64,000 nucleotides of DNA from Anaeromyces robustus. Taxonomy: Eukaryota > Neocallimastigomycota > Neocallimastigomycetes > Neocallimastigales > Neocallimastigaceae. The stretch lies in the NCBI GenBank assembly GCA_002104895.1, contig MCFG01000317.1:1-64000 (forward strand). Direction: 5' to 3'. The notes beneath the pieces are model-generated. The model saw nothing but the letters and a program-made list of their open reading frames with translations, was not told the DNA's origin and did not search any database. Made by a program: the position numbers and the translations under genes. This document shows positions 7,438 to 60,501 of the stretch, piece after piece (within the stretch, counting starts at the first letter, position 1; each line of letters begins with the position of its first letter).

Positions 7438-8999
7438 AATGGAGGAAATTGAAAAAATTGAATTTAGTGAAACCAATCGAGGCAAAAAACAACTCATTAT
7501 TAATAAAAAATATAAATTTAATTTTTCACTAACAAAAAAAGATAATTCAAAAGTATACAGATGCACAGAATACAAGACAGCAAATAAATGTAAATCTTTC
7601 ATTATTTTAAATGATAAAAATGAAATTTTAAAATATGAAAGTTTCCATAATCATCTTGAAAAAGAATTCAAAAGTATACAGATGCACAGAATACAAGACA
7701 GCAAATAAATGTAAATCTTTCATTATTTTAAATGATAAAAATGAAATTTTAAAATATGAAAGTTTCCATAATCATCTTGAAAAAGAATTTGATGCATCTC
7801 TGTCACTAATAAAACATAAAATTAAAGAGGAAATCAGAAAAAGCACAATTCCAATGGATTTAAAACCAAGGCGTATATATAACGAAGTTTCTCAAAACAT
7901 GGGATTCATATGTCCAAAATATGATACAATTAGATCCCAAATACTTAGAAATATAAATAAGCAAATACATACAGATATTACAACATTTGATGAAATTCCA
8001 AATGAATCAATATATTATAAAACAGAAAGAGGAGAGGATTTTATGATATTCAAAAATCCTAATATAATAATTTTTCAATCACCTTTTCAAGCAAAATTAT
8101 TTTCGAAATATTATGAAGATATATTTGCTGATGGTACATTTTATGTAGCGCCTAAGTTTAGCTACCAAGTATTTATAACAAGAACTTATGTTTCGGAATT
8201 AAATAAATTTTATACTACTTCAATTTCTATATTAAAAAATAAAAAAGAGGCCACATATGAAACATTATTTAAAGAAATAATAAAAAAAATAAATTTAGGG
8301 AAAATAGTATAACTACCCAAATTAATTTACATTGTGATTTTGAAATAGCTATATCCAATGCTGCAAGAAAAATTATTCCTAATTTAAATATCAAATATTT
8401 TATTTGGCATTACAAAAAATCTTTAGAGAAATAAAAAAATATATTATGTTTTAATGAAGTAGATAATAATAATGATGTATATGTATAGTATAAAGCTATT
8501 TCAAATTTGCCTTTTATAAATCCTGAATATATATTTGATATTTATTTCAAAATCAAAAGTGCATGCAAAAAAAATAACTATAGCAAATTTTTGGAATAGT
8601 TATTTTTTGGAATTTTTAGAATATTTTAAAAATAATTATTTACATAAATATAATACTAATAATTGGAATTATTATAAGAATATAGAGCATATAACAAATA
8701 ATGCTTCAGAATCTTTTAATAATTACTTAAATAATTTATTTTCAAAAAAACCTTCATTTTTTAAATTAATTTATATATTAAAAAAAGAAGAATCCTTATC
8801 CTACAATGATTACGAAAGGAGAATTAATGGAATCTGGAGAAAAAAACAAAAAATAATTAGAAAAACTGATGAAATAAAAAATATAATTGAAAATTATAAA
8901 TATATGGAAAAAGATTATATTTATAATGGATATGATAGAAAAGATATTGTTGAATTATGGTATAATTGCTTAATTGATTTAAATAATAAAAAATACTAA
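7438..8999 (+). pseudogene. MULE transposase with FLYWCH zinc finger, broken
   Basis: The start at 7438 begins MEEIEKIEF. An N-terminal FLYWCH-type domain (YRC, NKC, FHNH) is followed by a MULE/DDE core. The first catalytic Asp is in FADGTFYVAP (near 8127-8160), the second in CDFEIA (near 8331), and the conserved ITNNAS region is near 8690. The C-terminus is Lys-rich. The frame is broken: a 121-bp tandem duplication (7546-7666 and 7667-7787) shifts the frame inside the zinc finger, the frame closes near 8312, and in-frame stops follow near 8430 and 8486 before the last open stretch 8535-8999. Protein length without the duplication would be about 480 aa, usual for small FLYWCH MULEs. It would cut and join the terminal repeats in the nucleus. 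Not functional as it stands. Confidence 0.85.
7546..7787 (+). repeat. 121-bp tandem duplication inside the transposase
   Basis: Two abutting near-identical copies begin ATTCAAAAGTATACAGATG. 121 is not a multiple of three, so the second copy is read in another frame. The fragment at 1-475 lacks it, so it is a recent slip or unequal exchange in this copy. Confidence 0.9.
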
Positions 9000-13860: not shown

Positions 13861-14197
13861 CATACTTTTATTTTATTAACAAATTATATTTTTATCTTAT
13901 ATTATTTTTAATATATATTATTATAATTAATATAAATATTAATTTACTGATATTATTGTATTGTTCAATGAAAATGTATAAAAGATTGATGAAATATGTA
14001 TTCTTACATTCTTTGTAAGATTATTAACCTAATAATAATCTAATAAAATATAATAATAAAATAATTAAATAAAACTAAATAAAGAAATAATATTTATATT
14101 AAAACTTATAATAAAAATAAATATATTATGTACACCCTACGTATTAGATTATTGTGTATTCCGACCAAGTTAATCTTTAAACCAAACTAAAACTTTA
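13861..14197 (+). mobile_element. LTR 3' part, same family as the chromovirus LTR
   Basis: Matches 56963-57197 plus 59171-59267 (the LTR that flanks the chromovirus at the right end), ending CAAACTAAAACTTTACA. It includes the TATAAAAG box and the CTTTGTAAGATTATTAACC hairpin module. It is joined directly to the internal region of the small LTR element, without that element's usual LTR and priming site. Confidence 0.7.
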
Positions 14198-14936
14198 CAG
14201 AACGGAACCCAGAGATTTGTAGATAACCAAGAGATGATAAGAATTGAGATAAAGCATTAAAAACCCTTGAAATAATATATAAGATATTATCTACAAAGAT
14301 ATAATAGAATATTAAAATAACAGAGATATAGAGGTGTATATTCAGCGGTAAAGTATCACAAAATAGAGCGAGTTTGAACGAATTTTAACCGACATCGAGC
14401 TCTAAAAGGTTCTAAATGGCAGGCACAAGTAATTCTTTGATAGATCGGTTGTTGGTATCCCAGAATGGTTGAATTAGAACTAAAAATTTAAGGAAATTTC
14501 AAAGATCGCAGCTGAGTGCATCGGAGGTTAAAACTAATTATCTCAAGAACTAGAGTAGCTAGGAGTATTCCGAAAGATTTAATAAAAAGTAGGTGAATAG
14601 TTCTTGATAAAGGAATCATTTATTTGATGAAATTCAAGATATAACTTAATGGATGAGTAAATTTAGAAATTTTTTCTTCAAAGCTTGACGGATGAGTGCC
14701 TGTTCAGAAAGTGAATTTAAATTTTCCCAAAATTATGGCACAGAGTAGTATAACCAATATTCGCTAGTAGATTACTTTTCATAGAACCGGAAATATCAAT
14801 TTTTGCTTCATAATTTGAAATTCTAGTATATAATTTGAATATAAAATAAAAATAAATAATGTTAGTAACTTTGAAACCTCGGAAGTGGAATACTACAACA
14901 AGGTAGTGAGTGTTTTCCAACGAGAGTCAACATTGT
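14198..14936 (+). mobile_element. Internal region of the small LTR element (TRIM), old copy
   Basis: About 740 bp, collinear with 57845-58580. Shared landmarks are GAACGGAACCC, GTATATTCAGCGGTA, ACCGACATCGAGCTC, AATGGCAGGCACAAGTAATT and GAGTCAACAT at the end. No long open frame exists in either copy. The first about 60 bp of the internal region, including the primer site, are missing, so this copy looks chimeric and incomplete. Confidence 0.8.
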
Positions 14937-15461
14937 TGTAACGAATCATGAAAATGAGTAACCTGTCTTAGTGGTTAGTAACTAAGACTATGGTTCGAAC
15001 TTTTCGAGTTCGAAACCTCTTAATTCCAATTTATTATATTTTTATTACTTTTATTTTTTTACCATAAATTTTACCAAGCAAAATTATTCTGATTGGTTAA
15101 ATTTTGGTCATTAAAAAATTTTTTAAAAATTTTTTCAAATTTTTTTCTATAAATACGAGTGAATTTCTCTTTAAAAAATTTTTAATTATTCGAGTTTTTA
15201 TTAATAAAATAAATTATTATTTTAACACTAACTTGTTAAGTCCATGTGTTTTTAATAATAAATTTATAATTAATAAAGAGTTCAAATTTTTATTTTATTT
15301 TATTTTATTTTAAAGGGTTAAGGGTTTTGTTTAAAATATTCTTATTGTTAAAGACACATATCTTACAATTGTAATTATTATGAGTTATTCTCACTAGATT
15401 GTTGTTTTATTTATTATTAATTACTACAACAACCTAGTGAGAATAACTCATAATCGTTACA
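14937..15461. mobile_element. LTR unit with tRNA-like domain at its left end
   Basis: Bounded by TGTAACG and CGTTACA. Near the left end, on the plus strand (about 14956-15025), a tRNA-like segment has an A box in CTTAGTGGTTAGTAAC and a B box in GAGTTCGAAACC. The right 90 bp are the reverse complement of the start of the 57198 LTR (CCTAGTGAGAATAACTCAT). Just inside that lies a direct copy of the same start (from 15376), giving a head-to-head palindrome. The flanks ATTGT and ATTAT nearly match as a target duplication. Probably two overlapping LTR remnants. Confidence 0.65.
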
Positions 15462-25806: not shown

Positions 25807-27245
25807 ATGATGGAAAATTTAAAAATAGAATTTAGTGAAACCAATAAAGGAAAAGAACAAGTAGTTATAAATAGGAAATATAAATTTAATTTACGGTACA
25901 TAAAGAAGGATAATTTAAAAGTATATTATTGTACCGAATATAAAACAGTAAATAAATGTAAATCTTTCATTATTTTAAACAAAAAAAATGAAATAATAGA
26001 ATATTAAAGTTTACATAGTCATTCAGAGAAAGAATTTGATGTATCAATTTCATTAGTAAAACATAAAATTAAAGATGATATTAGAAAAAGTTCAATCCCT
26101 TTTGAAATAAAACCAAAGCGTATTTTTGACGAAATATCAGAAGAAATAGGTTTTATATGTCCTTAATATAATACAGTTAGATCCCAAACAACAAGATATA
26201 TAAATAAAAAATTGCCTTATAATATAATAACAAATTTTGATGAAATCTCGGATGAATCTGAATATTATAAAACAAAAAGAAATGAAAAATTTATGATATT
26301 CAAAAATTCTAATATCATAATTTTTCAATCACCATTTCAAGCAGAAATATTTATTAAATACAATAAAAATATTTTTGCTGATGGAACTTTTTATATCGCA
26401 CCAATATTTAGTTATCAAGTGTTTATAACAAGAGCATATGTTCCAGAATTAAATAGTTTTTACACTACATCATTTTCGATATTAAATAATAAAAAACAAA
26501 CGACATATGAAACATTATTTGAAGAAATAAATAAAAATTTAAAAAAATATAACAATAATATTATTATTACTAGTATTTCCATTGTGATTTTGAAAAAGCA
26601 ATATCTAATGCAATTAAGAAAATCTTTACTAATATAAACATTAGATATTGTGTATGGCATTAAAAGATCACTTGAAATTAATAAAAATAAATTATGTTAT
26701 AAAGAAATAGAAGATAATAAATATAAATACATGTATTTTAAAGCTATTTTAAACTTTCCATTTATAAATCTGGATTATATTTTTGATATATACAATAAAA
26801 TTAAAAGGGAATGTCTAAAAAACAATTATAATCAATTCTTATATTTTTTAGAATATTTTAATGATATTTATTTATAGGAATATGATATCAAATATTGGAA
26901 TTATTATAATGGTATAGAGCATATAGCAAATAATGTTTCAGAGTCATTTAACAAATATTTAAAATTATTATTTCAAAATAAACTAACTTTTTATAAATTA
27001 ATTCATAAATTAAAAAAAGAAGAATCATTATCTTTTAATGATTACCAAAGAAGAAATGAAGGAATTTTGAGTAAAAAAAGAAAAATATTTAGAAGAACTG
27101 ATCAAATAAATATATTAATTGGAATGTACAAAGAAGCAGAGTCTAATTTAATTAATAATGAATGTGATAGAAATGAAATCATTGAATTATGGTTTGAATG
27201 CTTAAATATTTTAAATTCAAATTTCATTAATCTTATATCAATTTA
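25807..27245 (+). pseudogene. FLYWCH-MULE transposase, diverged copy, broken
   Basis: The start at 25807 (MMENLKIEFSETNKG) aligns with the 7438 transposase start. The FLYWCH-type domain has YYC, NKC and a LHSH-like pair. The core has FADGTFYIAPIF near 26381 (first catalytic Asp), the second Asp region HCDFEKAI near 26580 and NNVSESFN near 26930. In-frame stops occur near 26005 (TAA after IEY), 26165 and 26875, with frame changes near 26570-26650. Divergence from the 7438 copy is large (different residues throughout), so this is a separate family, not a recent duplicate. Confidence 0.82.
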
Positions 27246-27430
27246 AGATATAGATATAATATTATTATTAATATTAATATCAATATCAATATAAGATATA
27301 GATATAAAATTATTATTAATATCAATATCAATATTAATATAATATATACATATAAAATTATTATTAATATCAATATCAATATCAATAACAATAATAATAT
27401 CAATATAATTATAAATTTAAATCCTATTAA
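27240..27430 (+). repeat. Subterminal minisatellite of the second MULE
   Basis: Repeats of ATTATTAATATCAATATCAA with AGATATAGATATAAAA spacers. Same position and core word as the array after the 7438 transposase. Confidence 0.8.
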
Positions 27431-49191: not shown

Positions 49192-49417
49192 GCTATTGAC
49201 AAATATTTAAAAAATAGAATTAAGAATTATCAAAGTGTCCCACTAAACGTTAAAGAATGAGATAGCGAAATTTAGGATAGAGGAAAGCAGTTATTGATTA
49301 TATAACCGAATTGATACAGCAGTTTCAGATGACCTTCTCGGAGCCTTACAAACAAACCCGGTTCAACCACACCAGGTCAATCAAAACATTCAAACGAAAC
49401 GACCCCCCGGTCTTAGT

Positions 49418-50620
49418 GAACCAATTACATCATTAGTAAAACATAAAATTAAACATGAAATTAGAAGAAGTTCAGTTCCATTTGATTTAAAACCAAAACG
49501 TTTATATGATGAAATTTCTCCTGAAATGGGATTTCAATGTTGTCAATATAAAACAATTAAATCTTCAATAGCAAGAAATATAAGTAAACAATTTCCTCCT
49601 GATTTAAAATTATTTGATGAAATTCTTGATGTATCAGAATATTACAAAACAATAGAGGGTAAAGAATTTAAAATATTCAAAAATGATAATCTTATAATTT
49701 TTCAATCTCCATTCCAAGCAGAATTTTTTTCAAAATATGAAGACATATTTGCAGATGGGACTTGGGACTTTTTATACTGCACCTGCAATAGCTCATCAAG
49801 TATTCATAACAAGAACGTATATTGAAAAATTAAATTGTTTTATACCACTTCTTATTCTATCATTAAAAATAAAGAACAAATAAATTATGAAAAATTATTA
49901 GAGGAACTAAAAAAAATGTTATTAAATATAACAATAATAATGAAATTACTCCAAAGTATTTTCATTGTGATTTTGAGAAAGCGATATATTAAATGCGGCC
50001 GAAATAGTGTTTCCAAATATAAATATCAAATACCGTATTTGGCACCACAAAAGAGCATTAGATAATAAATTTAATAAATTATGCTCTAAAAAAGTAATAA
50101 ATAACAATGATTTAAATAATAATAATAAACACATTTTAAATTTTCCTTTCATAAATCCTGATTATATATATTTATAATAAAATTAAAAGCAAGTGTAATG
50201 AACATAATTATGTTCAATTTTTAGAATTTTTAGAATATTTTAAATATACATATTTAATTGATTATAATATTAAGTATTGGAATTACTATAATAATATAAA
50301 ACATATTACGAACAATGCTTCAGAATCTTATAATAATCAATTAAAAAATTTTTTTTCAAAAAAACCTACTTTTTTTAAATTAATATATGTATTACAAAAA
50401 CAACAGTTCTTATCTAATGTTGACTACAAAAGGAGAATTACAGGATTTTGGGGAAAAAGGACAAAGAAACTAATAAGAACCGATGAAATTAATACTATAG
50501 TTAAATATTACAAAATTATGGAAATCCTGGAAAAAAGAAAAAATGAAATTGATAGAAATAAAATAACTGATTTATGGTTAAATTGTTTAGATGATTTAAA
50601 TATTAAAATTATTAATTAAT
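49418..50620 (+). pseudogene. Third MULE transposase, FLYWCH domain missing
   Basis: It starts in the linker (SLVKHKIKHEIRRSSVPFDL near 49430), then DEISPEMGFQC, the core with FADGT near 49749 (a local duplication of the GGGACTT word disrupts it), the second Asp region HCDFEKA near 49970 (in another frame) and NNASESYNN near 50310, to a Lys-rich end near 50618. Frame changes occur near 49770, 49850 and 49975 and there are later stops. The zinc-finger part is replaced by unrelated coding-like DNA. Related to both other transposases but equally distant. Confidence 0.78.
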
Positions 50621-52074: not shown

Positions 52075-52675
52075 TGTAATGTTGGAGTGGAGTTTATTAG
52101 CAACAGGCCCGCAAGCTTGAGTAACTCGAAATAATGGACAACACGAAAGATCTAAGAAAGATAAAAGACACAGTTAATTAAAAATATGTTTTATAATAAA
52201 ATGTTTTATTAATTTTTATTAAATTTAAAATATAATAATTTATTAATTAGTTAGTGTAATATTTCGAATTACTTATTTAACTAGTTAATAAAAACGCGAA
52301 GAAAAAATATTTCTTTTGTCGAAATTTTACACGTATTTATACTTTTTACGGAAAAATAGTTTTCGTTTGTAAAAAGTATTAAAAGTTCTAGAAACTTAGA
52401 TTTTTTGATTTAAAATGAATCTCGGATAAATAAAATTTAAAATAAAAAGAAAAACTAGAATCTTTTAGAATTTAATCGATAAGATTTTATCGATTAAATT
52501 CGAGTAATTTCTACAACAAGGAAAAGTGTAGAAAATTTTGATAATAAATTTTTAAAATAAAATTTTTTCAAAATTGGAGAGAGTGAGAGTCGAACCCGAG
52601 AGGTTCGGCCTGATGGTTCTAGTGTCTGACCACTAGACCATGGTTACTATTTTACTAATTCTGAGTTTCGTTACA
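52075..52675. mobile_element. Solo LTR with tRNA-like domain, TSD ATTTT
   Basis: TGTAATG...CGTTACA, 601 bp, flanked by ATTTT on both sides (52070-52074, 52676-52680). On the minus strand near the right end (52652-52578): CATGGTCTAGTGGTCAGACA contains A box TGGTCTAGTGG; B box is GGGTTCGACTC. It sits inside another LTR that ends near 52949. Confidence 0.85.
52578..52652 (-). ncRNA. tRNA-like segment with A and B boxes
   Basis: A box TGGTCTAGTGG and B box GGGTTCGACTC lie about 40 bp apart, the spacing of a tRNA gene. Start words CCATGGTCTAGTGG resemble tRNA-Glu. No convincing acceptor stem, so not a working tRNA. Confidence 0.65.
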
Positions 52676-53547: not shown

Positions 53548-54262
53548 TGTAACGGAACGGTTGTTCCAATATTACAATTGACACCAAAATTTGAAGTAAA
53601 CACAAACAAAATAAAATTTAAAATAAAAGATACTTATTGCAATATCAGAACACCTTTCCTTTGTTAACCTGAAAGGTCGGTGTCGAGATATATATATTAG
53701 TAAGATTTAGTTTTAAGTTTTATTTTATTTTTATTTAAAATACGTTTTATTAGAATATAGTTTTATTAATTATTAAAAATTAATAATAACTAATCTTTGT
53801 AGTATTTCAAACTACTTATGAATTAATTATTACTTATATATATAAAGTTATAAAAGAATAAAAGCACAAAGAAAAATATTTTAACTAAAAGTTTTACACC
53901 TATTTATACTTTTTGCGGAAAAATAGTTTTAAAAATAAAAGTTCATAAAAAATAATAAAAATTGCTAGAAACTAAGACATTTTGTTATAAAATGAATCTC
54001 ATAGAAAAATAAAGAAATATTATATAATTTTTTCTTAAAGTTTCTAATTTCATTCCATGTAATTCTATAAAGAAATACAGAAATAAAATACAGAAACAAA
54101 TACAGAATAAAATACAGAAATTTATAATAAATAAATTTAAAATAAAATTTTTATAAAATTTAGAACAAGGTATGAGTCGAACCCAGAGTGTTCGCCCAGA
54201 TGGTCATAGTTACTAACCACTAGACCATGGTTACTGTTTTACTAATTGAGGGATTCGTTACA
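53548..54262. mobile_element. Solo LTR with tRNA-like domain, TSD TATAT
   Basis: TGTAACG...CGTTACA, 715 bp, flanked by TATAT on both sides (53543-53547, 54263-54267; weak evidence in TA-rich DNA). Inverted copy of 18140-18865. The tRNA-like segment is on the minus strand at 54236-54165. Confidence 0.82.
54165..54236 (-). ncRNA. tRNA-like segment with A and B boxes
   Basis: Minus strand: CATGGTCTAGTGGTTAGTAA, then GGGTTCGACTC. A box perfect, B box near perfect. Closest to eukaryotic tRNA-Glu/Asp by its start. Stems partly decayed. Confidence 0.7.
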
Positions 54263-56079: not shown

Positions 56080-56118
<39 letters not shown>

Positions 56119-56127
56119 TTAATAATG

Positions 56128-56187
<60 letters not shown>

Positions 56188-56207
56188 TTAATAATGATAA
56201 TAATAAT
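54630..56207 (+). mobile_element. Gag fossil with zinc knuckle and poly-Asn tail
   Basis: The start at 54630 (MTGSTSSSSTGIMEVD) follows an A-rich tract. Words: LPRIGGSHKDAEIWKFRIN and VDKLRQLKRLVIEPNETVYD are typical retrotransposon gag helices, then an Asn-rich stretch, then a CCHC knuckle (CYFCKQSGHGIKDC near 55578). A further open stretch (TATTWFDKYND, VLRPRTRSQTK) runs into an (AAT)n tract that reads as poly-Asn. The distal part is cut by an LTR insertion at 56208. No protease or RT follows, so family cannot be fixed (Ty3/Gypsy or copia). About two breaks; a fossil. Confidence 0.7.
56075..56207 (+). repeat. (AAT)n microsatellite, split by an LTR
   Basis: Nearly pure AAT repeats, resuming at 56780-56819 on the far side of the inserted LTR. 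Confidence 0.9.
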
Positions 56208-56778
56208 TGTAACGAACTTAGTGAGAAATTCACTAGGTTGTTGTAGTATTTCAATAATTAAAATAAAATAAACAAACAAAATAAATAACACAATATTAAA
56301 ACATAATGTTTATGGATTTATTTTGTATTTTATTTAATATTTAAATATTTAATATTTTTCTTATTAATAATGACTCAAAGAGTAAAAATAATATTAATAC
56401 ATTTCTTTTATATTCAAGACTTATTCTAAATCATTACGTGATTGGTTTACTTATTTAAATAACAAAATATTTAATTATTTAACTATTACTATAATTAAGT
56501 GAATACATAATTAGTATCTAAATAAAATCGTATTTATATCTAAGTGAACGAATAATTAATATCTAAATAAATCTAACTAAGTGAATGAATAATTATAGAC
56601 TAAATAATTCTATTAATAAAATAAGTAAATGAACAAATGTATTAATAACTAAATAAATGAATAATTTTCCAAATCAAAAAGGTAAAAGTAGGATTCGAAC
56701 CAGTGATATCTATGATAAAGGTAGAAGTAGTTACCGTTGAGCCACGAAGTTCCTTAATGTCGTTGTTGATACCGTTAC

Positions 56779-56779
<1 letters not shown>
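56208..56779. mobile_element. Solo LTR with tRNA-like domain, TSD ATAAT
   Basis: TGTAACG...CGTTACA, 572 bp, in an (AAT)n tract, with ATAAT on both sides. The start (CACTAGGTTGTTGTAGTA) is shared with the LTR at 57198. The minus-strand tRNA-like segment is at 56755-56681, with B box GGTTCGAATCC (perfect) and A-box-like TGGCTCAACGGTA. Confidence 0.82.
56681..56755 (-). ncRNA. tRNA-like segment, perfect B box
   Basis: CGTGGCTCAACGGTAACTAC at the A-box position and CTGGTTCGAATCC at the B-box position. The start resembles tRNAs with GTGGCTCAG-type D arms, unlike the GTCTAGTGG type of the LTRs at 52075 and 53548, so different tRNAs may have been captured. Confidence 0.65.
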
Positions 56780-56820
<41 letters not shown>

Positions 56821-57197
56821 TGTTAAGGATTTGAATGGATTATAGATATAAGCCACATTATATCTATTAAATATTTATTATTCAGCATGTTTATGCGCCC
56901 CAAATCCTTATACAATTTAATTATTATTAATTTTATTAATAATACAGTTGAATATAAATTATACTTTTATTTTATTAACAAATTATATTCTTATCTTATA
57001 TTTTTTTAATATATATTATTATAATTAATATAAATATTAATTTACTTATATTATTGTATTGTTCAATGAAATGTATAAAAGATTGATGAAATATGTATTC
57101 TTACATTCTTTGTAAGATTATTAACCTAATAATAATCTAATAAAATATAATTATAAAATAATTAAACAAATTTAAATAAAGAAACTATATTTATAAT

Positions 57198-57782
57198 TGT
57201 AACGAATATGAGTTATTCTCACTAGGTTGTTGTAGTAATTAATAATAAATAAAACAACAACATGAATAGCTCGAATAAAATATATTGAAATATTTATTAA
57301 ACTGAACGATTTAATTATTTATGGTTTTATATTATTATTTTATTTATTACTAATTGAAATGTTAATGTTGACTCCAAGAGTCAAAATAAAATAATACATG
57401 AAGTTTTTATATTCAAAATCTATTCTAAGTTATTACATGATTGGTTATATAATTTAAAATAAAATATATTTAATTATTATTAAAATACAATTTATCTAAT
57501 TATTAATTAATCTATCCATTTGCTAATTATTAATAATTTATTTAGTTAATTAATGTGTATTCACTTAATTAAGATTTATTTAACTTATTATTTATCATTC
57601 ATTTAATTAAATTATAAGTTTATCTAAAAATTAATGATTCATTCATTTAATTAATTTATTATTATAAATATTATTTCGAAAAGGTAAAAAGTAAGATTTG
57701 AACCAGTGACAACCAGTATGATAATACAAGCAGGTACCAATGAACCACTTTAGTAACCATAACGATTCTTGATATCGTTACA
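57198..57782 (+). repeat. Left LTR of the TRIM
   Basis: Starts TGTAACGAATATGAG, ends GATATCGTTACA. The antisense tRNA-like segment is at 57765-57683: B box CTGGTTCAAATC, A-box-like GTGGTTCATTGGTACC, about 45 bp apart. Confidence 0.9.
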
Positions 57783-58580
57783 TGGTCCTCCTCTAAAGAT
57801 CGGATACCAGACGATCACTAATATACAGGAGTAGAAAATAAGAGATGGGAACGGAACCCGGAGATTTGTAGATAACTAAGAGAGGATAAGAATTGAGATA
57901 AAGTATTAGAAACCCTAGAAATAATATATAAGATATTATCTACAAAGATATAATAGAATATTAAAATAACAGAGATATAAAGGTGTATATTCAGCGGTAG
58001 AGTATCACAAGGTAGAGCGAGTTTGAACGAATTTTAACCGACATCGAGCTCCAAAAGGTTCTAAATGGCAGGCACAAGTAATTCCTTGATGGATCGGTTG
58101 TTGGTATCCCAGAATGGTTGAATTAGAACTAAAAATTTAAAGAAATTTCAAAGATCGCAGCTGAGTGCATCGGAGGTTAAAACTAATTTTCTCAAGAACT
58201 AGAGTAGCTAGAAGTATTCCGAAAAATTTAATAAAAGGTAGGTGAATAGTTCTTGATGGAGAAATTATTTGTTTGATGAAATTCGAGATATAACTTAATG
58301 GATGAGTGAATTTAAAATTTTTTCCTTCAAAGCTTGATGGATGAGTGCCTGTTTAGAAAGTGAACTGAAGTTTTCCCAAAATTATGGCACAGGGTAGTAT
58401 AACCAATATTCGCTAGTAGATTACTTTTCATAGAACCGGAAATATCAATTTTGATTCATAATTTAAAATTCTAGTATATAATTTGAATATAAAATAAAAA
58501 TAAATAATGTTAGTAACTTGGAACGTCGGAAGTGGAATACTACAACAAGGTAGTGAGTGTTTTCCAACGGGAGTCAACAT
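57783..58580 (+). other. Non-coding interior of the TRIM
   Basis: Moderately AT-rich, with fixed landmarks shared with 14198-14936 (ACCGACATCGAGCTC, GGTTGTTGGTATCCCAGAAT, GGAACGTCGGAAGTGG against AACCTCGGAAGTGG). Conservation of a non-coding interior suggests packaging or priming function. Confidence 0.8.
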
Positions 58581-59165
58581 TGTAACGAATATGAGTTATT
58601 CTCACTAGGTTGTTGTAGTAATTAATAATAAATAAAACAACAACATGAATAGCTCGAATAAAATATATTGAAATATTTATTAAACTGAACGATTTAATTA
58701 TTTATGGTTTTATATTATTATTTTATTTATTACTAATTGAAATGTTAATGTTGACTCCAAGAGTCAAAATAAAATAATACATGAAGTTTTTATATTCAAA
58801 ATCTATTCTAAGTTATTACATGATTGGTTATATAATTTAAAATAAAATATATTTAATTATTATTAAAATACAATTTATCTAATTATTAATTAATCTATCC
58901 ATTTGCTAATTATTAATAATTTATTTAGTTAATTAATGTGTATTCACTTAATTAAGATTTATTTAACTTATTATTTATCATTCATTTAATTAAATTATAA
59001 GTTTATCTAAAAATTAATGATTCATTCATTTAATTAATTTATTATTATAAATATTATTTCGAAAAGGTAAAAAGTAAGATTTGAACCAGTGACAACCAGT
59101 ATGATATTACAAGCAGGTACCAATGAACCACTTTAGTAACCATAACGATTCTTGATATCGTTACA
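58581..59165 (+). repeat. Right LTR of the TRIM
   Basis: Same 585 bp as the left LTR, tRNA-like segment at 59148-59066 on the minus strand. A 60-codon minus-strand frame across its end is chance. Confidence 0.9.
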
Positions 59166-59301
59166 ATAATAAAACTTCTAATAAAATTAATATTAGTGAA
59201 CACCCTACGTATTAGATTATTGAGCATTTCGACCAAGTTAAACTTTAAACCAAACTAAAACTTTACAATAATCTTACCTGCTGTTTTGTAACTTCCTTGG
59301 A

Positions 59302-60501
59302 ATGCCAAAGTTCTCCTTAAGAAAAAACACGGGTTATTCTGCTAAATCGGACGAAGAAATGGAGATGAATCAAGAAGATTCAGTTCAACAATTAAGAATG
59401 GAAGCCTCACAAGCCTGCAATTCTTTAGCTGAAGGGCTTGAACAATTAAGTAATGAGACTTCCCAAGCTTGCTCAAATATTATGTCTGGAGTAAATCAAG
59501 GCTTCGTCTCAAAGGATGATTTGCAATGTTACCATCAAGAGGTAATGAAACAATTTCAATCCTACGAGCGTGCTAATAATGAGATAATGAACTCTTTAGA
59601 ATCTCTGAAAAAGGCTACTCTCTACTTTAAGCGCGAACTTACACAAAGAGAGAGACTTTATCCTGGTGCTACGGCTTCTACTAGCGAACAACCAACTCCT
59701 GTAGCTACCACTTCTGCTCCTCAAGCTACTTTCGATGATAACGCTTCTACTACTACCAGGTTTGACGTAGACAACGACGTTATCATGAGAACAGCTTTTC
59801 CCTATACTGTTGCTCAGGTACCGGAACCTGGTCTTTTTTACGGCGATATCTCCGAAATTGAACTATTCTGTCAACTTTGCGGAGATACATTCAAAACTTA
59901 TCCTTGTAAGTTATGGCCCGAAGAAGCAAAAATCAACTTCGTTCAGTCTAGGTTGCGTGGAGCTGCAAGAAGTTGGTATCAAACAAAATATCCTATTGGT
60001 ACTATTCCATCCTCTTTATGGACCCTTCTAGAAGAATTAAAAAGAGCCTTTCCTGATGTCGTTAACAGGAAACTAAAGAAGATTAAATTAGCCAATATAA
60101 AGCATAATTACGGAAAAATCAATGAGTACATTGATGAATTCCGTAAGTTAACTGCTGATTTAGCTTGGCCTGAAGAACCTTTAGCTTTATTCTTTTATAA
60201 AGGTCTTCATCCTAAATACAAGGATGAAATAAACAAAATGGAAAAGTTTCCTGAGAAGCTCGAAGAAATCATAACAAAGTGTATCTTGTTAGAGTCTTCT
60301 CAAGAAATGAATGCAAAGATCAGTCAGTTCTCCGGAAATAGAACTGACAAGAAGAAAAATTCAAGTTCCCGTCCGCAGAATACCGAAAAGAAGAACAAAA
60401 ATACTAATTTTCATAAAAACAATAATTTTTACAATAAGTCTAAAAACAACAGTAACGACAACCGCGTTACTGATGTTCAAAAGATCAGTTCAAAAAACTA
60501 G
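59302..60501 (+). CDS. gag: Chromovirus Gag, apparently whole
   Basis: 399 codons from ATG at 59302, about 35 bp after the LTR. N-terminal part Glu/Gln-rich and helical (residues 20-120), then a Thr/Ser/Pro/Ala linker (125-160), then the retrotransposon gag core: VAQVPEPGLFYGDISEIELF (about 170-190), FCQLCGDTFKTYP, RSWYQTKYP and INEYIDEFRKLTADLAWPEE (about 275). The C-terminus is Lys/Asn-rich and basic, apparently without a CCHC knuckle, so RNA binding may rest on the basic tail. Codon use is richer in G+C than the surroundings. It ends in a slippery heptamer before its stop. It forms the cytoplasmic particle of the element. Confidence 0.88.
   Translation: MPKFSLRKNTGYSAKSDEEMEMNQEDSVQQLRMEASQACNSLAEGLEQLSNETSQACSNIMSGVNQGFVSKDDLQCYHQEVMKQFQSYERANNEIMNSLESLKKATLYFKRELTQRERLYPGATASTSEQPTPVATTSAPQATFDDNASTTTRFDVDNDVIMRTAFPYTVAQVPEPGLFYGDISEIELFCQLCGDTFKTYPCKLWPEEAKINFVQSRLRGAARSWYQTKYPIGTIPSSLWTLLEELKRAFPDVVNRKLKKIKLANIKHNYGKINEYIDEFRKLTADLAWPEEPLALFFYKGLHPKYKDEINKMEKFPEKLEEIITKCILLESSQEMNAKISQFSGNRTDKKKNSSSRPQNTEKKNKNTNFHKNNNFYNKSKNNSNDNRVTDVQKISSKN
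60492..60498 (+). promoter_or_regulatory. Slippery heptamer A-AAA-AAC for Gag-Pol frameshift
   Basis: In the gag frame the heptamer A AAA AAC directly precedes the gag stop, and the pol frame is open in the -1 register across it. Ty3/Gypsy elements commonly use programmed frameshifting to make Gag-Pol. The fit to X-XXY-YYZ is perfect. A downstream stem or pseudoknot was not identified. Confidence 0.7.

Follow-up and report, generated by a model that had tools for sequence, protein, structure and literature searches.

F1 occupies positions 57198-59165 (minus strand; 1968 bp) of the window, by which we mean the whole stretch of 64,000 nucleotides analysed here. The element is flanked by the TSD ATAAT on the left (57193-57197) and on the right (59166-59170). 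In sense orientation, which is assigned below to the minus strand, the 5' LTR lies at 58581-59165 and the 3' LTR at 57198-57782. Each LTR is 585 bp long and has the termini TGTAACGA...TCGTTACA, and one mismatch separates the two. The interior of 798 bp (57783-58580, minus strand) is non-coding and holds no ORF of at least 120 codons, counted from stop to stop. A preliminary description made from the letters of this DNA had proposed a complete two-LTR element with this TSD and a non-coding interior, all of which was confirmed, and had argued for recent movement, which is borne out by the single difference between the LTRs and by a second complete two-LTR copy on contig C754 with 0 of 585 LTR differences. 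The classification of F1 as a recently moved two-LTR mobile element that lacks coding capacity is supported.

That description had also pointed to further copies as a check, and a search of the 70.17-Mb assembly (769 contigs) for the 585-bp LTR located at least 21 F1 loci among the best 40 of 532 candidates scored; this and the other copy counts, for which 40 of 509 and 150 of 463 candidates were scored, are lower bounds. Most of the F1 loci are solo LTRs. TSDs of 5 bp are present at 13 of the 21 loci, and the other eight have one end that is missing, broken or non-matching. Copies of the family F2 are 1844-1847 bp long, compared with 1968 bp for F1, and a head-to-tail F2 array with common LTRs occurs at C505:20706-25054 (L066, L067) with a period of about 1251-1254 bp. 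A degenerate F1 interior, 94% identical, was also seen in the window at 14200-14932, where it abuts a piece resembling the E2 LTR (13862-14202).

F1 splits the 5' LTR of another element, E2, which is on the plus strand (first part, 56821-57197; second part, 59166-59267). The E2 gag ORF (59272-60501, plus strand, stop to stop) matches Retrotrans_gag, and its pol (C243:60474-64064, plus strand) has RVT_1, RNase H, integrase and SH3_Tf2-1 domains. Judged from its sequence, E2 is an autonomous Ty3/gypsy-type element; its designation as a chromovirus was dropped because Pfam found no chromodomain. RT-bearing relatives, which the preliminary description had expected, do exist in the form of E2 and of the family F4. 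The E2 RT region has 66-80% identity with Orpinomyces (Orpsp1) proteins and 76-88% with metagenome matches, and named matches from plants, animals, an alga and a smut fungus that ranked above the first Orpinomyces match are 45-57% identical. Judged by this protein similarity, the host is probably an anaerobic gut fungus. A protein labelled as coming from an Erysipelotrichaceae MAG (P0057) matches the same region at 65%, and may be from a contaminating fungal contig in a bacterial bin.

Three solo LTRs lie to the left of F1, all on the minus strand. The nearest, of the related family F3 (56208-56779; 572 bp), has an A box at 56744 and the B box GGTTCGAATCC. The F6 solo LTR (53548-54262; 715 bp; TSD TATAT) has an A box at 54227 and the B box GGGTTCGACTC, and the F10 solo LTR (52075-52675; 601 bp; TSD ATTTT) has an A box at 52640. 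The window also contains three similar pairs of broken transposase-like ORFs (7632-8999, 26167-27246 and 49298-50619) that by eye resemble those of MULEs; the first pair had FLYWCH as its sole Pfam match, and the third had none.

Sense strand and probable self-priming

The interior end on the TGG side is common to F1, F2 and, in part, F3 (block AAGATCGGATNCCAGACGATC). Read on the minus strand, it contains a conserved hairpin, GATCG-TCTGGTATC-CGATC (57798-57816), that precedes the polypurine tract AGAGGAGGA (57786-57794; TCCTCCTCT in the plus-strand reading, after TGG). The TGG that follows the left LTR had been described as priming-type; the trinucleotide is there, but it is the end of this polypurine block and not the likely primer site. 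In the family F4 the polypurine-side block occurs in one form, with 2 differences, at 12 places. At ten of these an RVT_1 match lies 2.6-3.3 kb off on the strand opposite the block (150 of 463 RT candidates scored), and at the other two (C330, C484) no such RT match was among those listed. In E2, whose gag and pol are on the plus strand, a hairpin built in the same way immediately precedes the element's purine tract and 3' LTR.

Since the polypurine-hairpin block lies at the 3' LTR in E2 and is found in the RT-bearing F4, the sense strand of F1 should be the minus strand, although the block common to F1 and F4 covers only 21 nt, 2 of them mismatched, and F4 and E2 have LTR termini unlike those of F1. 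Four lines in all point to the minus strand: the strand of the F4 RT, the hairpin-polypurine block of E2, the self-priming complementarity, and the U5 snapbacks beside the primer site. With F1 read in this direction, its purine tract would be AGAGGAGGA and the boxes in its LTRs would be in sense orientation.

The first 11 nt of the F1 sense interior, ATGTTGACTCC (58570-58580, minus strand), are perfectly complementary to GGAGTCAACAT at LTR sense position 408 (58748-58758, minus strand), and this arrangement is that of a self-priming primer-binding site. The same relation holds for the first 10 interior nucleotides of F2 (position 395), F3 (position 404) and E2 (position 292 of a 474-bp LTR); the letters are different in each of the four, so that both sides change together. 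Only 10 of 788 interior 10-mers in F1, 9 of 651 in F2 and 13 of 504 in F3 have a complement in their own LTR, and most of these are AT-rich. Such complements being rare, four matches at interior position 1 are very unlikely to have arisen by chance. A TATA-like box precedes the self-primer site by 36 bp in F1 (TATAAA at LTR sense position 372; 58789-58794, minus strand), 37 bp in F2, 36 bp in F3 and 38 bp in E2. By analogy with Tf1 and Tj1, we infer that the F1 genomic RNA starts at the self-primer site near LTR position 408. Close to the primer site, CTACAACAAGGTAGTGAG (58540-58557) in the interior pairs at 16 of 18 positions with CTCACTAGGTTGTTGTAG (58601-58619) in the adjoining LTR, and a compensating change seen by eye in the F2 version suggests a conserved stem there.

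Two rearranged copies have LTRs that fit the self-priming reading. At C242:36977-38556 (L013; TSD ATAGT), the sense-5' LTR is replaced by U5 plus an inverted copy of it. At C166:7503-8944 (L024/L029), an F1-type snapback adjoins an F2 interior and F2 LTR, the whole enclosed by the TSD ATTTT. The sequence of this mixed element suggests template switching between families, and it also suggests that F1 and F2 RNAs may share particles. A palindrome-like F1 U5 snapback of 92 bp is present in the window as well (15370-15461), where it has no clean TSD.

A and B boxes in the LTRs

The 5' LTR of F1 has at sense position 36 the motif TGGTTCATTGG (59120-59130, minus strand), which we take to be an A box by the consensus, and at position 79 the B box GGTTCAAATCT (59077-59087, minus strand), followed by a run of five Ts at position 93. 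The 3' LTR has the same pair at 57737-57747 (A box) and 57694-57704 (B box), again on the minus strand. The boxes are 43 bp apart, start to start, which is tRNA spacing; the B box has GGTTC, and the pair lies about 300 nt upstream of the LTR TATA box. The presence of a minus-strand pair at tRNA spacing in each LTR, as had been described, was confirmed. When the F1 LTR was shuffled with its dinucleotides preserved, 0 of 2000 shuffles had a pair by the loose pattern within the first 60 sense bases, and the same test on six other sampled LTR families gave 1 to 10 of 2000. Across the 64-kb window the loose pattern has 12 matches, against a mean of 3.4 in 30 shuffles, and six of the 12 are LTR units (52640, with two overlapping matches, 54227, 56744, 57747 and 59130). 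The loose pattern by itself is weak evidence.

Position within the LTR is a more regular feature. The A box starts at LTR sense position 36 in five of seven sampled families (33 in F2, 28 in F7) and the B box at 77-80 in six of the seven (70 in F7). These families form three groups (F1, F2, F3; F5, F6, F8; and F7), between which BLAST gave only short matches of at most 99 nt. Box position across LTR families and insertion footprints took the place of a comparison of box drift, for which the F1 copies are too alike; the drift comparison was void because broken LTRs had brought in foreign sequence, leaving 262 of 698 columns variable. No B box was found in the E2 LTR, nor in the 123 nt read of the F4 LTR, whose end is assumed.

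The scan for a tRNA or a pol III promoter that had been envisaged earlier succeeded in one part: it gave the A/B pairs, but ARAGORN found no foldable tRNA in the window and Rfam had no match at E<=10 in 56100-59300. Thus, "A/B box pair" is the right term, and "tRNA" is too strong. A run of four or more Ts starts 14-35 nt after the start of the B box in six of the seven families (in F1, five Ts at 14 bp; in F3, four Ts). F2 has no such run before position 309, and a short pol III RNA would therefore not be made by all families. A pol III-type promoter in each F1 LTR, with its boxes at LTR positions 36 and 79, is supported as a prediction from these motifs.

Insertions beside the A/B units

At 10 of the 21 F1 loci, at least one other element ends 22-24 or 73-77 bp from the A box. 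The shorter distance belongs to T-type elements (T1, T2, T3, T5), which at five of the 21 loci (C267, C768, C315, C585, C114) have entered the LTR at 22-24 bp from the A box. The same placement was found for T2 inside an F3 LTR on C364 (22 bp) and for T5 inside an F8-type LTR on C459, where the pattern offset is 14 and the true A box is at about 23. At tRNA genes, T5 ends 20 bp from the A box of a tRNA-Arg (C378) and about 22 bp from that of a tRNA-Ala (C382), and T1 ends 14 bp from the start of a tRNA-Trp (C219). Among sampled loci, one of five T5 ends and four of six T2 ends do not face a unit, and none of the far ends does (0 of 3 for T1, 0 of 5 for T2).

At the longer distance lies E1, which at six loci is 73-77 bp away from the A box of F1. 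A gap of 72 bp separates it from an F5 unit, and an equal one from the A box of a tRNA-Cys. Eight of nine E1 ends face a unit and one faces none, a figure that is biased because the loci were chosen for F1/F2 matches. The genome-wide counts of E1 and T1 are unbiased in this respect: 39 of 125 E1 starts face a unit at 58-84 bp, with about 1 expected, and 15 of 40 T1 starts face one at 8-34 bp, with 0.3 expected. These expectations derive from the unit density in the sampled loci (160 in 283,583 bases) and are approximate and too low, since the gapped search patterns are looser than the pattern on which the expectation is based. A reversed-pattern control of the gapped searches came out empty because the end motif never occurs reversed. 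Where E1 neighbours a tRNA gene, the distance to the tRNA start is 66-68 bp in all four cases (100 of 125 E1 starts and 63 tRNAs compared). No unit is present at the tested end in 86 of 125 E1 starts, 25 of 40 T1 starts and 10 of 26 F2 insertions.

F2 is carrier and settler in one family. When its 45 external ends were grouped by hand, 16 of 26 insertions had a unit at 71-75 bp, of which four are tRNA genes and 12 are LTR-type units by sequence (at C382 the pattern value is 65 and the true A box is at about 73). E2 is a weak settler: its distance is 76 bp to the F3 A box in the window and 74 bp to an F1 A box on C224, and these are the only two of its 14 external ends beside a unit. None of 32 F1 external ends faces a unit at 70-77 or 19-25 bp, and no tRNA gene was found in the F1 loci scanned (all except L001, L002, L004 and L023) or in the window. 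Two of 14 F3 ends are 69-70 bp from a unit, in both cases the unit of an F2 copy that itself lies 72-73 bp from the F3 unit. F1 and F3 show no targeting of pol III units themselves.

Footprints of this kind are found at units of the F1, F3, F5, F6 and F8 types. A broken LTR fixes the order of insertion, and so does a nested arrangement in which E1 or F2 has entered a T element that itself sits in F1 (C114, C585, C267). LTRs of T1 also occur in pairs about 1 kb apart (C181:4308-5826, C512, C217, C652, C56 and C768), so that T1, too, may be a short two-LTR element with pol III units as its targets.

Interpretation and comparison with known elements

In work on yeast and Dictyostelium, insertion at a constant distance from A/B boxes is read as the mark of assembled TFIIIC/TFIIIB (PMC5391098, PMC5911963). 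By the same reading, pol III factors most likely assemble on the LTR boxes, which would thus serve as decoy tRNA genes. We consider it probable that F1 is a non-autonomous element with a TATA-driven, self-primed RNA and, separate from these, a pol III-type unit that serves as a decoy tRNA gene and landing pad. F1 would be a Ty3/gypsy-type LTR retrotransposon mobilised in trans by RT-bearing relatives. Its genomic RNA would most likely be made by pol II from the mid-LTR TATA box and would prime its own reverse transcription as Tf1 does, an arrangement that is present and whose use we infer. The separate sense A/B promoter in the first 90 bp of the LTR would be treated by host pol III factors as a tRNA gene, as the footprints suggest, and elements that target tRNA genes do integrate beside it at their usual spacing. 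Each new copy would then also be a decoy tRNA gene and a landing pad. The least certain step is the benefit to the carrier, where our best guess is that the carrier's own U3 becomes open or insulated in the manner of a tRNA gene.

The chances seem about even that non-coding LTR elements of this genome spread working decoy tRNA genes, diverting tRNA-targeting retroelements from host genes to mobile elements, with the targets of the settlers multiplying along with the carriers. If this is the case, mobile elements supply the targets of other mobile elements, and a genome may have a way to absorb tRNA-targeting retroelements harmlessly. The footprints of targeting elements can be read as a natural assay of pol III complex assembly, and several LTR families give a positive result here. 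Among the titles and abstract openings listed in the open-licence literature, none describes tRNA boxes within LTRs as targets of integration.

An alternative, which we regard as unlikely, is that the genomic RNA is itself a pol III transcript begun at the A/B unit (TRIMp3), as in the model for Helenus and Cassandra. TRIMp3 is a published proposal for such elements (PMC10886601), and Cassandra is described there as transcribed from its LTR 5S promoter. The preliminary description had known of no named tRNA analogue of Cassandra, but there is one: Helenus, a group of TRIMs whose LTRs contain tRNA-derived sequence (Kojima 2024, PMC10886601). As described there, Helenus resembles F1 in its two LTRs, missing coding region, tRNA-type A/B boxes in the LTR and solo LTRs, as well as in its several families per genome, an autonomous relative without boxes and, in fungal Helenus, a 5-bp TSD; the sense orientation of the boxes matches too. 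Against the model, the self-primer and TATA box of F1 (LTR positions of about 370-408) copy the layout of the autonomous E2, whose LTR lacks a B box, and the T runs after the B box, five in F1 and four in F3, could stop pol III early.

Size and priming also set F1 apart. F1 is 1968 bp long with LTRs of 585 bp, whereas the report gives 311-1263 bp for Helenus, with LTRs of at most 323 bp, and screened for TRIMs shorter than 1000 bp, a group that F1 resembles in having two LTRs and no coding region (PMC10886601). Helenus is described there as primed by tRNA, whereas the first 10-11 nt of the interior pair with the own LTR in F1-F3 and E2, and F1 has a separate TATA box and predicted RNA start. 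Fungal Helenus is tied to Copia and the relatives of F1 are Ty3/gypsy; the host table of the report has no anaerobic gut fungus (PMC10886601). The boxes of F1, in addition, are integration targets. F1 is partly Helenus-like, without the size and tRNA-primer features of Helenus, and its LTR has the boxes at 36 and 79 but matched no tRNA model. Cassandra and Ajax are likewise non-coding elements with a pol III-type promoter in their LTRs (PMC10886601), of 5S rRNA type rather than the tRNA type of F1, in whose surroundings (56100-59300) Rfam matched nothing at E<=10.

It is also conceivable, and in our view quite improbable, that the boxes survive from a tRNA or SINE insertion, have no use today, and that the insertion pattern follows another property of the LTR end. 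In favour of this, no tRNA fold can be drawn through the boxes, and by eye the F1 A box is further from the consensus than the A boxes of F5, F6 and F8. Against it stand the similar spacing at real tRNA genes with unrelated flanks, the equal box offset in LTR groups that otherwise have only short matches, and the footprints at units of five types (F1, F3, F5, F6, F8).

The preliminary description had called the boxes antisense and proposed a pol III RNA from the 3' edge of the LTR, as they are on the strand opposite to the one that begins LTR-TGG; the four lines that place the sense strand on the minus contradict this, and we hold it to be very improbable. The A and B boxes of a tRNA gene overlap the D and T arms of the tRNA, and the boxes might on that ground be an annealing site for, or a copy of, a primer tRNA rather than a promoter, a reading we find scarcely credible, given that priming appears to use the element's own RNA and that the boxes are in sense orientation at the U3 end, some 500 nt upstream of the primer site.

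Tf1 and Tj1 have, like F1, a primer site complementary to their own LTR or RNA 5' end (PMC4600332), the RNA 5' end of F1 being a predicted one, and E2 has an SH3_Tf2-1 domain. Tj1 integrates at pol III genes; both are autonomous, unlike F1, and no A/B boxes in their LTRs are mentioned in the available text of that source (PMC4600332). Ty3, DGLT-A and TRE5 are described as targeting tRNA genes, DGLT-A at about 15 bp and TRE5 at about 50 bp (PMC5006619, PMC5391098, PMC5911963), compared with about 15 bp from the tRNA start for the T-type settlers and about 66 bp for F2 and E1. The same accounts relate that TRE5-A also used A/B-box loci outside a tRNA context, on rDNA (PMC5006619, PMC5391098, PMC5911963). 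The non-tRNA A/B loci found here differ in being inside the LTRs of other mobile elements, and so this set of targets would multiply itself.
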